The notes below the pieces were generated by a model that did no database searches, was not told the DNA's origin, and was given only the letters and a program-made list of their open reading frames with translations. From a virus, in IMG/VR virus record IMGVR_UViG_3300032047_000030, positions 1 to 45,284 of that record: a DNA stretch of 45,284 nucleotides; one strand, 5' to 3'. The stretch's first letter is position 1. The number at the start of each line of letters is the position of its first letter. The position numbers and the translations under genes were made by a program. Positions 4,182 through 44,864 of this stretch are shown in pieces.

Positions 4182-5627
4182 ATGAACTTTAATTTTAAAA
4201 CTGAGCCGTATGAGCACCAGTTAACAGCCCTAGAAGACTCGTGGGCCGCGCCTCATTATGCGTTGCTCATGGAGATGGGCACCGGTAAAACAAAAGTCGC
4301 GCTTGATACGATGGTCAAGCTGTGGGAAGAAAGAAAGATTTCTGCCGCGTTAGTTATTGCCCCAAAGGGGGTGTATGACAACTGGATAAAAAACGAAATC
4401 CCGACTCACGTTCCCACCGAAATCGAACCTTTAATATTACGTTGGCAACCAAACATTAGCAAGAAATATGAAGATGAAGTGTCCCGGTTTCTGTTTGACC
4501 AGACAGGGGCGTTAAAAATTTTTGTGATGAACGTCGAAGCTTTCTCTACGCCAAAAGGCACAAAGGTGGCGAACACGTTTTGCAAACATCACCCAGACAA
4601 TCTGGTGATTGTGGACGAAAGCACCACGATTAAAAACCGCAAGGCGCAGCGCACCAAAAACATCGTATCGCTCAATAAAGTCAGTAAATATCGTCGCATT
4701 CTGACAGGTTCACCCATTACAAAATCACCAATGGATTTGTTCAGCCAATGTTTGTTTCTGGACAAAAAGGCCTTGGGATTTGAGAATTATTTCGCGTTCC
4801 AAGCGCGTTACAGCATCCTTGCCCGCCGTGTCATCAACAACCGCAGCTTTCAGGAAGTTACAGGGTATCGCAGACTGGACGAACTGACTGAAAAGTTAGA
4901 GCACTTTTCCAACAGAGTATTGAAGAAAGATTGCCTTGATCTGCCTGATAAAATTTATATGCGGCGCGATGTGGACCTGACCGACGAACAGGTTAAACTG
5001 TACCGACAAATGCAGAAGCTGGCACTTGCCAAACTAGAAAATGGTGAGCTTGCAACGACCCAAAGTGTGCTTACCCAAATCATGCGTTTACAACAGATTT
5101 GTTGTGGTTTCCTGCAGCCAGACGAGGGTGACCTGCAACCTATCCCCAGTAAGCGTATGAGCGCCCTCAGAGAGATTGTGGACGAGGCGGATGGTAAGGT
5201 CATTATCTGGGCAACGTACCGTCACGACATTGCTAGGATCTCTGAGATGCTGCAAAAAGAGTTCGGTCCAAGATCCGTGGCTTCATATTTTGGAGACACG
5301 CCACAGAATGAGCGGCAGGAGATCGTGAATCGGTTTCAAGACCCCCTTTGCGATTTACGGTTTTTTGTCGCTCAACCCAAAACAGGCGGCTACGGTATTA
5401 CGCTCACGGAAGCAAGCACCGTAGTGTACTACAGCAACAGTTACGATTTGGAGATCCGCCTCCAGAGCGAGGACCGCGCACACCGGATCGGGCAGAAAAA
5501 CGCCGTTACCTATATTGATCTGGTATCGCCAAACACCATCGATGAAAAAATCCTGAAAGCATTACGCAGTAAAATTAACATTGCGAGTGAGGTCTTGAAC
5601 GAGGACGTAGCATCTTGGCTCAGTTAA
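4182..5627 (+). CDS. SNF2-type superfamily 2 helicase
   Basis: A 481-residue DNA-dependent ATPase and the only gene on the plus strand. Motifs in order: a Q-motif-like YEHQLTAL near residue 12, Walker A MEMGTGKTK (Lys36), motif Ia VIAPKGVYDNW, motif II DEST (145-148) with TTIKNRKAQRTK, motif III ILTGSPITKSP. The C-terminal lobe has VIIWATYRHDI, GYGITLTEA and motif VI QSEDRAHRIGQ (428-438), which is typical of SWI2/SNF2. In phages such proteins accompany replication or recombination; the substrate is not evident. It has its own promoter and ribosome site. Its stop overlaps the convergent small gene at 5624, and no strong terminator follows, so opposing transcripts may collide there. Confidence 0.92.
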   Translation: MNFNFKTEPYEHQLTALEDSWAAPHYALLMEMGTGKTKVALDTMVKLWEERKISAALVIAPKGVYDNWIKNEIPTHVPTEIEPLILRWQPNISKKYEDEVSRFLFDQTGALKIFVMNVEAFSTPKGTKVANTFCKHHPDNLVIVDESTTIKNRKAQRTKNIVSLNKVSKYRRILTGSPITKSPMDLFSQCLFLDKKALGFENYFAFQARYSILARRVINNRSFQEVTGYRRLDELTEKLEHFSNRVLKKDCLDLPDKIYMRRDVDLTDEQVKLYRQMQKLALAKLENGELATTQSVLTQIMRLQQICCGFLQPDEGDLQPIPSKRMSALREIVDEADGKVIIWATYRHDIARISEMLQKEFGPRSVASYFGDTPQNERQEIVNRFQDPLCDLRFFVAQPKTGGYGITLTEASTVVYYSNSYDLEIRLQSEDRAHRIGQKNAVTYIDLVSPNTIDEKILKALRSKINIASEVLNEDVASWLS

Positions 5628-24737: not shown

Positions 24738-25045
24738 TATTCATCAAACCCCATCATAACCATGTTTACACTAGCGACTGTGCTTCTACCAATAACATAG
24801 TCACTAGCCCCTGCTACTACCGGAGAAAAACTTATACTCTCATCTGGTCCAATCTGCGTGTTCTCTAAAAGCTTTTGAGCGTTGGCAAACGTGGCAGAGG
24901 AATCTCCTACACCTAATTGCACAAACGCTGAAGTTGAACTGCGATTGAGTATGTGAACAGTATAAGTACCTCCACTGGAGCCAGCCTGTCCAATATTTGC
25001 TGTAGTATTTGCTGATAGGTCTACACCTGATATTTTAACTGCCAT
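24737..25045 (-). CDS. Small beta-rich structural protein in fibre region
   Basis: A 102-residue protein with alternating strands (YTVHILNRSSTSAFVQLGVG, ESISFSPVVAGASDYVIG), resembling small jelly-roll head or tail decoration proteins. No family is assigned. It overlaps both neighbours by one base (stop-start coupling), so it is made with the fibre at 25045-26343 and probably belongs to the same structure. Confidence 0.65.
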   Translation of the reverse strand: MAVKISGVDLSANTTANIGQAGSSGGTYTVHILNRSSTSAFVQLGVGDSSATFANAQKLLENTQIGPDESISFSPVVAGASDYVIGRSTVASVNMVMMGFDE

Positions 25046-26343
25046 TATAATTGTCCCATGAAAAATGCTTTACCGACACTTGGGCCGCTTGCTGGTGCAT
25101 CAGAAAATGTTGGAGGCGCACCTGCTCCAGCAGACGTTAAAAGTTGCCCTGCACTACCTGTTGCCACAGCTACAGGATTACCTGACGCATCGTAGCTAAT
25201 TAAATTTCCATCAGTTCCAGTTGCCATCTTAGCAAGAGTCACGGCATCGTCCACTATAGACGCTGTAACTACCGCACTGGCGGCCAACTGATCTGCTCCC
25301 ACAGCATCATCGGCTATTTTTGCTTGGGTGACGTTATCATCAACGATAGAGGCTGTGACAACCGCACTGGCGGCTAACTGGTCTGCACCTACCGCATCAT
25401 CTGCGATCTTAGCTTGGGTCACATTATCATCAACAATAGAAGCCGTGACGACAGCACTGGCGGCTAACTGGTCTGCACCTACCGCGTCATCGGCTATTTT
25501 TGCTTGTGTCACTGCATCAGTGGCTAACTTTGCAGTGGTGACTGTGCCATCACCGGGCGTTCCTACGGAAGACTCTGAAAACCCTGTTACCTCCACACTG
25601 CTTCCATTCGGAGGAGCCGTGCTGAAAGTTAAAGTCGTTCCAGAAACAGCGTAGGTGCCTTTTTCTTGGTAGACACCATCAATAAATACTTGGGTATTGT
25701 TCTCTGACCCCGGTGCGGTGGTTAACGTAAATGCCGTGGTGCTGCCGTTCCCTGTCGCTTCCGTAAGCGATACACTGGTTGCACCCGAACCACCAATATC
25801 GCCCCAAGCGTCAGTATACCCTTCAAAAGCTCCTGTCGTACTGTTGTAACGAAAAGCTCCTGCAACACCCGTTGGTCTGTTCCCTGTCGAACCTGATGGC
25901 ACATAGAAAGCTTGTGAGCCAAAAGCGGCAGCGGTGACATCGACTACGGCTGCGCCAGATCCTGCCCCGTCCAAATACACAATGCGTTTTGTGCCATTGG
26001 TTATCGTAACTGTCGCACCAGAGCCTTGTTTTATGATTATTGATTGACTGCCGCTGGTGGCATTTTCAATGATTTGCACCCGCTTTAATGTATTTGGGGC
26101 AAGCGAAATCGTACAAGCAGAATCCAAAGTGCCTGTATATTTTAGATGGAGTGCTCTTGCTGGATCAGTAGCCCCGTCAGCTATAGTAGAAGTATGCGTA
26201 TCGGCATTGGTTGTAATGCCTTCTTCTCCAATACCAAGAGCTTCACCAATCAACTCTAAGGAGGCATTTGTCGTAGTCCCCCAATCAGCATCGCCATCTG
26301 CGGGTTCCGCTACTCTTAAATTATTTACATAAGTTGCTGCCAT
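25045..26343 (-). CDS. Tail fibre protein with 30-residue tandem repeats
   Basis: A 432-residue fibre. The N-terminal 140 residues (ATYVNNLRVAEPADGDADWG, LELIGEALGIGEEG, VQIIENATSGSQSIIIKQGS) are paralogous to the fibre at 19017-20390. A middle domain has FTLTTAPGSENNTQVFIDGVY, a fibre-like strand module. The C-terminal part carries three copies of a 30-residue unit (TQAKIADDAVGAD then QLAASAVVTASIVDD), each made of two half-repeats of about 15 residues; this fits a trimeric fibre shaft. The remaining 45 residues are short, so the shaft may end in a small tip or need a partner protein. Confidence 0.85.
   Translation of the reverse strand: MAATYVNNLRVAEPADGDADWGTTTNASLELIGEALGIGEEGITTNADTHTSTIADGATDPARALHLKYTGTLDSACTISLAPNTLKRVQIIENATSGSQSIIIKQGSGATVTITNGTKRIVYLDGAGSGAAVVDVTAAAFGSQAFYVPSGSTGNRPTGVAGAFRYNSTTGAFEGYTDAWGDIGGSGATSVSLTEATGNGSTTAFTLTTAPGSENNTQVFIDGVYQEKGTYAVSGTTLTFSTAPPNGSSVEVTGFSESSVGTPGDGTVTTAKLATDAVTQAKIADDAVGADQLAASAVVTASIVDDNVTQAKIADDAVGADQLAASAVVTASIVDDNVTQAKIADDAVGADQLAASAVVTASIVDDAVTLAKMATGTDGNLISYDASGNPVAVATGSAGQLLTSAGAGAPPTFSDAPASGPSVGKAFFMGQL
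25280..25514. repeat. 90-bp tandem repeat encoding the fibre shaft
   Basis: Two complete 90-bp units (25280-25369, 25370-25459) and a partial third unit from 25460 lie in tandem. The units differ at scattered, mostly third-position sites, so the protein repeat is conserved while the DNA has drifted. The repeat length keeps frame, so shaft length could change by unit gain or loss. Confidence 0.85.
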
Positions 26344-42292: not shown

Positions 42293-43741
42293 TCAGTAAT
42301 ACATTTTCATTTTTATAGACTCCGCTCCTTCATCCCAATCATCACTTGGTAACCGAACAAAATTACCCTGCCGATAGCGCATCAGCGCCTGAGTCATGCT
42401 ATCAACCAAATCGTCATGCTCTCCGTTGGGAAACGCCGCAACTTCTTCAATTAATTCTTCTGCAAAAGTGGTATCGGGACACCATACCATACCCGCCTCA
42501 AATAAGGGAGACACAGAATGAACCCTTGTGATCTTATCATTACCCCTAGATGGCGTAAAGTTTACCACCGGTATTCCCATCTGCCGCATTTCTTGCGTCA
42601 ACGGCGTACCACTGGCCTTGGCCTCAACAATTACGGTGTCGGGGTCCCAAAACTTATACTCATCAAATGCCATTTGTTTAAGCTCTGGAAAATCCCATCG
42701 ACCTTTTTTACTATCCAGTAAAATTAATCCGGGGGTCCCTGACTCGTTTGGGTAAAAAACACCCCATGTCGTAATCGCACTATAGTCTGCTGTCTCCCGC
42801 TTACTGAACGCCGTATCATAACTCTGGATCACGTATTGCAGATTGGGAACATCATCGTTCTCCCACAACTGCCACCACTCGCGTTTGATAATCGCACTCT
42901 CTTCGCCAGTCGGATTCTGCTGATACTGCGCGTTCCATTTGTTCAACGGTATTGATGCGCGAACCGCGTTCAAATCATCAAGACTCCAGAACTCAGGCCA
43001 ACACGGGGTATCATCCTCAAAAATAGCCGGTAACTCCACAATTTCCCACTGATCGGCCATCGGATCTTTTGCCATCGCACGTAACAACTGCCCGGTCATA
43101 TCCTTCTCCGACCAGCGCGTTTGCACCAGCACAATCGAACCACCGGGCTGTAACCGCTGCCGGGGACCACCCGTATACCAATCCCACGCATCATCAAACC
43201 CAGAAGCCGACATCGCCGTTTGCTCCGAATGCGGATCGTCAATAATAATCAGATCACCACCACGACCCGCGAGGTTAGAACCAACGCCCACGGCATAGTA
43301 CATACCACCAGAACTCGTGTCCCACCGACCAGATGCTTTACTGTCAGCCGCTAACTTTACTTCTGAAAAAATTTCTTTGTACTCGTCCGAATCCAAAAGG
43401 TTCTTAGTCTTACGACCAAAGTTAACCGCAAGCTCCGTCGTATGCGTTGCCTGAATGATCTTCATGCGCGGATTACGGCCCATCATCCAAGCCGGAAAAA
43501 GAAAAGACGCAAACTCACTTTTCGTGTGCCGTGGAGCCATGTTAATAATTAAACGCTTCAACTCACCACGGGCCACGCGCTCCAACTTTTCAGCAATAAT
43601 CTGATGGTGACGACCCGCAATAAAGTCAGGCCACATATTTTTTACAAAAATTAAAAACTCGTTTTTACACGCCTCGTTCTTCTCAAGTTGTGCCAAACGC
43701 AGTTGCAATTTGAGTTCTTGCTCACTGACCTCTACATCCAT
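42293..43741 (-). CDS. Terminase large subunit
   Basis: A 482-residue packaging motor with ATPase and nuclease. ATPase signs: Walker A-like MAPRHTKSE (Lys74), Walker B LIIIDD (164-169) and a following coupling region (VLVQTRWSEKDMTGQLL). Nuclease signs in the RNase H-like fold: Asp309 in QSYDTAFSKRETADYSAITT, Glu373 in VIVEAKASG and Asp443/Asp444 in GEHDDLVDSM. It cuts and pumps DNA into the prohead through the portal. The small terminase was not found in the window. The ATG at 43741 has only a weak ribosome site (AGGG). A promoter-like pair lies upstream at 43773-43801. Confidence 0.93.
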   Translation of the reverse strand: MDVEVSEQELKLQLRLAQLEKNEACKNEFLIFVKNMWPDFIAGRHHQIIAEKLERVARGELKRLIINMAPRHTKSEFASFLFPAWMMGRNPRMKIIQATHTTELAVNFGRKTKNLLDSDEYKEIFSEVKLAADSKASGRWDTSSGGMYYAVGVGSNLAGRGGDLIIIDDPHSEQTAMSASGFDDAWDWYTGGPRQRLQPGGSIVLVQTRWSEKDMTGQLLRAMAKDPMADQWEIVELPAIFEDDTPCWPEFWSLDDLNAVRASIPLNKWNAQYQQNPTGEESAIIKREWWQLWENDDVPNLQYVIQSYDTAFSKRETADYSAITTWGVFYPNESGTPGLILLDSKKGRWDFPELKQMAFDEYKFWDPDTVIVEAKASGTPLTQEMRQMGIPVVNFTPSRGNDKITRVHSVSPLFEAGMVWCPDTTFAEELIEEVAAFPNGEHDDLVDSMTQALMRYRQGNFVRLPSDDWDEGAESIKMKMYY

Positions 43742-43751
43742 CGGGGGACCC

Positions 43752-43801: not shown

Positions 43802-43953
43802 GGACCATATCATTTTTCTGGTGATTATTTGCGAAAAACATGGCCCTTGTACTCGCTTGGCGACGGCGGGTCGGCGTGGCGAAAATTGCGGATTTTGGCG
43901 ATTTGCTCGTGGTCGAATAGCCTCGATTGTCGGGGGACCCGACGGGAATTTAA

Positions 43954-44072
43954 GACCAAGGACCAACCCGAACGGCGAACGGTTCACGGTTCACGGTCCA
44001 GTAACTACGAACCACGGACCACGGACCACGGACCCGCGTCCATGTTTTAAGGTCCATAGGTTTCGGGCATCG
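43954..44072. repeat. Phased degenerate heptanucleotide repeat array
   Basis: Cutting this stretch every seven bases from 43954 gives a run of related words: GACCAAG, GACCAAC, CCGAACG, GCGAACG, GTTCACG twice, GTCCAGT, AACTACG, AACCACG, GACCACG twice, GACCCGC, GTCCATG. The phase appears to persist less clearly to about 44072. The typical form is G-[AT]-[CT]-C-A-C-G. Exact neighbours (GTTCACG x2, GACCACG x2) suggest recent duplications within an older array. Confidence 0.8.
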
Positions 44073-44118
44073 GGCGGGCGGCGGCGGGCCGCCGGTTTAA
44101 CTGCTAAAAACAACGGGC

Positions 44119-44144
44119 AAAAAAAAGCCCGCACGGCGGCGGGC
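44119..44144 (-). terminator. Terminator after Gp88-like gene
   Basis: On the minus strand a GCCCGC / GCGGGC stem (44144-44139 with 44132-44127) and a six-base loop are followed by eight T (44126-44119). It separates the Gp88-like gene from the terminase region and is very similar in sequence to the terminator at 44938-44961. Confidence 0.88.
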
Positions 44145-44162
44145 CTAAGAGATCGGAAGCGA

Positions 44163-44864
44163 CTAAGCGGCGCGAACTATAAAGCGGCTGCTATCTATGT
44201 CCGACTGGTCAGCATCCGTTATTTTGTACTTTAGTCCGACGATGACCGGTCCCGCTTGCACGTTCAATAAGTCGGACTGATCGCCGTCTATAATTTCACG
44301 ATCTAAAAACGTTTCGCCAATTGGCACCTGATCAAACACCACGGCCAACGGTACATCGGTTCTTAATGCCTTGCGTACACTGGCTTGATATTTTGGTTCC
44401 GCGCTGTAGCTAAACATAAGTGCGTAATTATCCGGCGTTTTACCTAGACGATGCGCCGTTTTCGTATAGTCATACATAAATAGATCGGGGAATTCTTGCG
44501 GGATCTCGTGGCGTTCAAATGCTACGTCGCTCAAAACATTTAACCGCGCCACCGGTTGGACATTGTCGCGCTTGCAAACCTTGATGAAGTTAAATAGTTC
44601 ACGGCGTAGTTGATCGAGGAACATTTCCGGCGCAGCGTGGTAATAATCTTTTTTCGCTATTCTTGCGTCTTTCACATTCTCAAAACGTCCACGCCCCGCA
44701 CTTTTTAGGCAAAGGTTGCGACAGTTCGCAACGTTTGACCACGGGCACAAAATATCATCGGGATACATAGAAAGGCCGGCGATACGAACCGCACCATTCA
44801 GTTTTTGGGTTTTCTTAATTTTCAAGTTTCCCGCGTTAGTATCGAGTAATTTTTTAGGGTACAT
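44163..44864 (-). CDS. Gp88-like phage protein of unknown function
   Basis: A 233-residue protein resembling the 'gene product 88' family as I recall it, found in phages and plasmids with no established role. Typical parts: GLSMYPDDILCPWSNVANCR then NLCLKSAGRGRF, with Cys40, Cys48 and Cys52 (C-x7-C-x3-C), RLNVLSDVAFERHEIP, FPDLFMYDYTKTAHRL, and VVFDQVPIGETFLDREIIDG with a final VGLKYKITDAD. The Cys pattern could hold a metal or Fe-S cluster, which is inferred. It has its own promoter (44895-44923) and terminator and behaves like a stand-alone accessory (moron) gene. AAGG lies upstream of the ATG. Confidence 0.8.
   Translation of the reverse strand: MYPKKLLDTNAGNLKIKKTQKLNGAVRIAGLSMYPDDILCPWSNVANCRNLCLKSAGRGRFENVKDARIAKKDYYHAAPEMFLDQLRRELFNFIKVCKRDNVQPVARLNVLSDVAFERHEIPQEFPDLFMYDYTKTAHRLGKTPDNYALMFSYSAEPKYQASVRKALRTDVPLAVVFDQVPIGETFLDREIIDGDQSDLLNVQAGPVIVGLKYKITDADQSDIDSSRFIVRAA

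Follow-up and report, generated by a model that had tools for sequence, protein, structure and literature searches.

The window analysed here, the whole 45,284-nt stretch of the IMG/VR virus record IMGVR_UViG_3300032047_000030, contains a 421-nt gap between terL, the gene for the large terminase subunit, and a GP88-family gene, and within this gap sits an array of degenerate seven-base units. The features of the locus, all on the minus strand, are collected in Table 1. The palindrome GGGTCCCCCG, which lies immediately next to the start codon of terL, where no ribosome-binding site is evident, is also found before terL in most relatives. Elsewhere in the window, a 90-nt tandem repeat of 2.9 copies (25256-25512) lies within the ORF at 25045-26343 and, being in frame, is probably a repeated protein segment, and a gene for an SNF2-type helicase (4182-5627) is found on the strand opposite to most of the genome.

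Table 1. Features of the terL locus, by position in the window
Feature	Coordinates	Strand	Remarks
terL, large terminase subunit	42293..43741	(-)	phrog_38, E 8e-109; PF17289; 61.5% identity to HTVC027P TerL
Second GGGTCCCCCG	43742..43751	(-)	Immediately precedes the start codon of terL; not part of the repeat
Right edge block, GGGCC followed by ATGTTTTTCGCAAATA	43826..43846	(-)	Predicted repeat ends after GGGCC (43842); family consensus, 168 loci
Predicted direct terminal repeat (DTR), 251 bp	43842..44092	(-)	terL strand runs from 44092 down to 43842; edges homologous to the G004 and G032 repeats
Conserved core GGGTCCCCCGACAATCGAGGCT inside the repeat	43919..43940	(-)	Family form GGGKCCC...ATCGGGTCA; kept in relatives
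Degenerate heptamer array	43954..44072	(-)	terL-strand grammar ~GGNCCGY; hypervariable between strains; lag-7 test
Left edge	44060..44102	(-)	AGTTAAAC (44095-44102) just outside; predicted repeat start 44092, which on the terL strand is 29 nt ahead of the conserved AAAC (44060-44063); consensus, 103 loci
Terminator-like hairpin and T run after the GP88-family gene	44114..44146	(-)	CCCGCCGCCGTGCGGGCTTTTTTTT on the terL strand; relatives have a similar element
GP88-family gene, other side of the repeat	44163..44864	(-)	PF17338, E 2e-28; phrog_1617

The first-pass annotation of the window described at least twelve consecutive heptamers in strict phase, with two exact doublets and a G-N-Y-C-A-C-G-like pattern, and all of this is present when the sequence is read in steps of seven from 43954 (GACCAAG, GACCAAC, CCGAACG, GCGAACG, GTTCACG, GTTCACG, GTCCAGT, AACTACG, AACCACG, GACCACG, GACCACG, GACCCGC, GTCCATG). 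The period also stands well above shuffled sequence: the lag-7 self-match of 43954-44072 was 0.60, compared with 0.256 ± 0.042 in 5,000 dinucleotide shuffles, in which the maximum was 0.42 at this lag and 0.46 across lags 3-15, and harmonics appeared at lags 14, 21 and 28 (0.50, 0.44 and 0.44, respectively). The array is the sole spot of this kind in the whole window, with 63 of 100 positions matching at lag 7 against 41 of 100 in the best 100-nt stretch outside it. Tandem Repeats Finder picked up just the two parts with the cleanest repetition (43979-43997 and 44007-44034). The coordinates 43954-44072 are slightly conservative, as the periodic tract occupies most of the larger unit at 43842-44092. 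That the array encodes nothing convincing and is not a tRNA, as had been judged from the letters alone, agrees with our searches: a coding role was set aside, the overlapping ORFs matching no PHROG family and the zone being hypervariable, and a tRNA search of the stretch returned none. A BLAST search of the terL gap against phages gave only chance terminator-like matches.

At least 599 candidate stretches in IMG/VR encode relatives of this TerL, and with the conserved block GGGCCATGTTTYTCKCAAATA beside the gap as an anchor we obtained 107 distinct loci and 76 dereplicated upstream regions. Across these 76 relatives the mean autocorrelation peaked only at lags 7, 14, 21, 28 and 35, with a mean z of 3.3 at lag 7 and z > 3 in 39 of the regions. 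A cyclic seven-state model trained on half of the loci gained 54 nats per held-out locus, as against 17-22 nats for models of periods 5, 6 and 8-11. On the terL strand the consensus reads C-G-Y-G-G-N-C, that is, GGNCCGY, which nearly equals its own reverse complement; successive GGNCC words were spaced by 7 nt (92 times), 14 (27), 21 (22), 28 (9), 42 (11) or 49 (12), with few cases at neighbouring values, and their density in the zone was 4.4 times that in the remainder of the relatives' loci. Seven-base arrays thus do occur next to terL in related phages, in the matching gap, and they are built there from different words (e.g., GGTTCGT, GGCCCAA, GGTTCCC, GATCCAC, GGCAACC and CAGCTCC).

Strong lag-7 clusters numbered 16 in 821 kb of loci, all of them no more than ~500 nt upstream of the anchor. 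The 15-mer CACGGACCACGGACC had at least 120 hits in 2.9 million viral contigs; among the 120 matches listed, 34 carry this terL family, and in 11 of these 34 the word lies at most 400 nt upstream of terL. The array had also been proposed to be a slippage-prone element taken from a host genome, and this does not agree with the confinement of strong arrays to one locus of a phage family, on which ground we ruled out a host-derived simple repeat; nor are the arrays scattered at random over unrelated contigs. Some TerL relatives come from MAGs binned as Verrucomicrobiota (three), Rhodobacteraceae and Maricaulis (L314, L315, L316, L317 and L318), which may reflect hosts or binning errors. Tandem arrays with other periods take the place of the seven-base one in this zone in two relatives, namely of 10 (left end of L489) and 22 (end of G017, L498).

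The array is very probably the interior of a direct terminal repeat (DTR) in the genome of a tailed marine phage akin to the HTVC023P group of pelagiphages. The identity of this repeat and the position of both its ends are strongly supported by the contig termini of relatives, and for the window they are predicted by alignment. Identical sequence at both ends is found in two relatives whose contigs are close to genome length: a 57,546-bp contig (G004) has an exact 301-bp terminal repeat which corresponds to the array zone and ends with GGCAAGGGCC just before ATGTTT, and a 58,588-bp contig (G032) has an exact 520-bp terminal repeat of the same zone, with edges homologous to those of G004. Furthermore, the ends are fixed in independent genomes. 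The right edge is common to G004, G032 (1 nt short) and L337, the last of which stops at the base matching 43842. The left edge is common to seven contigs within 1 nt: five contigs (L001, L008, L070, L450 and L454) have their first base exactly 29 nt ahead of the conserved AAAC, the left end of G004 lies 28 nt before it, and L068 has a ten-N scaffold gap exactly at this edge. These two positions account for 7 of 26 nearby contig ends, and L001, with terL DNA identical to that of the window, starts at the base matching 44092. Upstream contig ends within 400 nt of the anchor are in excess (30 of 120, with ~6.4 expected), downstream ends being at expectation. The predicted repeat has a median length of 326 bp across 103 loci. 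In the window it would span 251 bp and is present in one copy only, probably because the assembler merged two identical ends. Terminal overlaps of ~107-127 bp in four other contigs (G002, G003, G005 and G018) were set aside as assembler artefacts since they are located at unrelated places.

As our computations show, the seven-base period is concentrated inside the DTR. In 121 loci spanning both edges, the periodic state had a posterior of 0.84-0.90 inside the repeat, as against 0.26 and 0.08 in the 200 nt flanking it on the left and on the right, respectively. GC content was 0.64 inside compared with 0.51 on the left and 0.36 on the right, and since this contrast boosts the difference in posterior at the edges, the raw lag-7 match is the fairer number: set against neighbouring lags, it was 0.366 vs 0.263 in the array zone, 0.236 vs 0.262 outside on the left and 0.270 vs 0.245 outside on the right, the excess thus being largest inside the repeat. 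The repeat of G032 has little seven-base signal, which indicates that the period is common in the family and not essential in every member.

While the rhythm is kept, the letters change quickly: strains near-identical in terL can share only about half of the array sequence. Between the window and L001, terL is identical over 1,446 nt, as is the stretch between the repeat and terL, and identity is 99% between the core and the right edge and falls to 50% within the array. We also compared 54 pairs that are 95% or more identical over 500 nt on the terL side. Immediately to the right of the repeat their median identity was 0.99; within the repeat it was 0.92 in the right-hand portion and 0.69 in the array. 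In the same pairs it was also 0.69 in the genes to the left of the repeat, which are often swapped. A pair in which both flanks are conserved (L034/L210, 0.97 and 1.00) has an array identity of 0.49. Computation across the family thus shows a common GGNCCGY grammar together with rapid turnover of sequence.

A separate observation concerns bacterial partition sites. Of 101 relatives, 42 carry the canonical parS sequence TGTTYCACGTGRAACA, often twice, at set distances beyond the right edge of the DTR, for instance ~43-116 nt past this edge in L009, L051, L055, L076, L314 and others (e.g., L314:1759-1774). Elsewhere in 821 kb of loci there are only two copies, and the window itself has none. As ParB_N was found in 0 of 11 genomes tested, some of them incomplete, a host ParB may be meant.

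Taken together, the data strongly support a DTR in which both edges and a core (GGGKCCC...TCGGGTCA) are conserved. Its making can be pictured as follows. The terminase would cut the concatemer at two conserved boundary elements, between AGTTAAAC.. and G on one side and between GGGCC and ATGTTT on the other, and the intervening segment would be duplicated at each packaging event, such that every virion genome would begin and end with the repeat. Before cutting, the small terminase (Terminase_2) may assemble on the heptad array, with the conserved core and the edge blocks supplying the sequence-specific signal. The first-pass annotation had found the small terminase missing, which is true of the window only: a Terminase_2 (PF03592) gene is present in all 10 long relatives tested, in most of them ~3.5-6 kb upstream of terL, a position that lies beyond the contig end in the window. 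Absence of the gene from the family is hence ruled out, and the terS gene that a docking role presupposes is present in relatives. In these phages the Terminase_2 gene overlaps a VRR-NUC nuclease gene directly downstream (L514:1178-1843 and L514:1704-2168). We tentatively put forward the heptad grammar as a candidate degenerate docking track for the small terminase. A more specific idea, possible though rather doubtful, is that the repeat is a putative phase-coded element, in which a protein, most likely the small terminase ring, would read the 7-bp spacing of loose GGNCC-like contacts. If this is true, the site could change nearly all of its letters between strains yet still work.

The docking track, though not the identity of the DTR, has a competitor in which the heptad is a mutational by-product. 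With every round of packaging a DTR would be copied again or recombined, and slippage along such a GC-rich and self-similar tract could keep regenerating seven-base arrays, leaving a period without function. Such an origin would suit the far faster turnover of the array compared with its flanks, the pure runs that occur (e.g., CAGCTCC repeated in L314) and the other tandem periods seen now and then (10 in L489, 22 in G017). Indel lengths speak on both sides: clean close pairs differ by 7 and 14 nt (L003/L004), 21 nt (L299/L041) and 14 nt (L063/L044), but clean pairs also differ by 13 and 37, and overall the indels that separate close relatives show no excess of multiples of seven (40 of 254 vs 36 expected, from poor alignments). 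We thus did not retain indel sizes as proof of slippage, and this result, to the extent that the alignments allow, weakens a purely slippage-driven origin. Moreover, degenerate units that stay phase-locked over at least 49 nt, under one family-wide grammar, are not predicted by neutral slippage alone. We regard a by-product without function as possible but on the whole unlikely.

Other readings concern the zone as a whole and are less probable. The first-pass annotation proposed a packaging start (pac) site; its direction, towards packaging, holds, while a headful pac site does not, since the evidence is for a DTR with fixed ends. With headful packaging, the process would start here, later cuts would be independent of sequence and the ends would be permuted. 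The site does adjoin terL, and two relatives, 023Pt_psg01 and DSL-LC04, are deposited as circular records, but collapse of a DTR would give the same outcome. Headful cutting would not produce a precise second edge, whereas contig ends mark two: the 301- and 520-bp repeats are exact and homologous at both edges, and the ends of independent contigs coincide with these two bases, which makes this reading improbable. We give still less credence to a replication origin or partition locus with iterons, to which the iteron-like repetition and the parS sites beside the repeat in nearly half of the relatives might point. The window has no parS, however, in relatives these sites lie outside the DTR, the tested genomes gave no ParB_N match, and the letters of the array are not conserved, unlike in usual iterons. 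Least probable of all is that the zone acts through RNA or single-strand structure, for example as a hairpin end while concatemers are processed: the consensus comes close to being self-complementary and the whole gap of the window folds with a z of -2.9, but in 40 relatives the array zone had a mean fold z of -0.96, with only 15% of them below -2, and did not fold better than the stretch beside it, and on this weak signal we rejected structured RNA or a hairpin as a general property.

To our knowledge, the choice of site by the small terminase is known for few phages. More than 100 natural versions of a single terminal repeat are available in the family, in which the edges and the core are fixed and the interior runs free but stays phase-locked, and these could be used as a ready-made mutational scan of the requirements of packaging ends. 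Additionally, strains with identical terL and arrays that are about half identical provide a fast-evolving strain marker and raise the question of how DTRs are copied. Overall, fast-changing letters combined with a kept seven-base rhythm offer a new starting point for studying how such ends are produced and packaged.

Homologous terL genes (55-61% identity) are found in HTVC023P, HTVC027P, 023Pt_psg01 and DSL-LC04, and GGGNCCC-like palindromes precede terL in several of the HTVC023P-type pelagiphages and DSL-LC04. The gap of DSL-LC04 holds GNNCCGT-type words, while HTVC023P, HTVC027P and 023Pt_psg01 differ in having AT-rich terL gaps with no comparable seven-base array. The paper on the HTVC023P group, in which the genomes were circularised, mentions no such array in its passages on terminase, repeats, noncoding regions and packaging (PMC9599517). 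Literature searches gave no relevant report of heptamer arrays, or of 7-bp repeats, at the ends of phage genomes. Among cellular sequences, the cyanobacterial STRR repeats and the heptanucleotide repeats of the Nostoc tRNA-Leu intron are likewise degenerate tandem heptamers with quick turnover, but they are dispersed or lie within an intron and not at genome termini.

The closest parallel comes from T7: as in the window family, its DTR is non-coding, and a seven-base word recurs in many imperfect copies both inside and next to the repeat. These short-repeat arrays, SRL and SRR, were reportedly named and first described by Dunn and Studier, and although they have long been known, we are aware of no agreed role for them. 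In the T7 record, the repeat measures 160 bp and 11 CCTAAAG words fall within the first 420 nt; they are ~13 nt apart (50 of 70 matches at lag 13, with no lag-7 signal), consist of one fixed word and lie partly outside the repeat, whereas the units of the window family run head to tail with a period of 7, inside the repeat, and differ between strains. CCTAAAG-like heptamers spaced by 12-13 nt, as in SRL and SRR, are thus not what the window holds, its period being 7 and its words others. SP6 similarly has a period-12 array near its left end (45 of 70 matches) and T3 has repeated CTTAAAG and CCTAAAG words at its left end; both differ in the type of terminase and in having no seven-base periodicity, and the left ends of T3, gh-1, phiKMV, N4 and Syn5 gave no comparable seven-base signal. 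Short repeats at DTRs are therefore seen again, with a different period, in a further group of phages: the array is of the same kind as those of T7 and SP6, and what is new is its head-to-tail period of 7, its place inside the repeat and its hypervariability.
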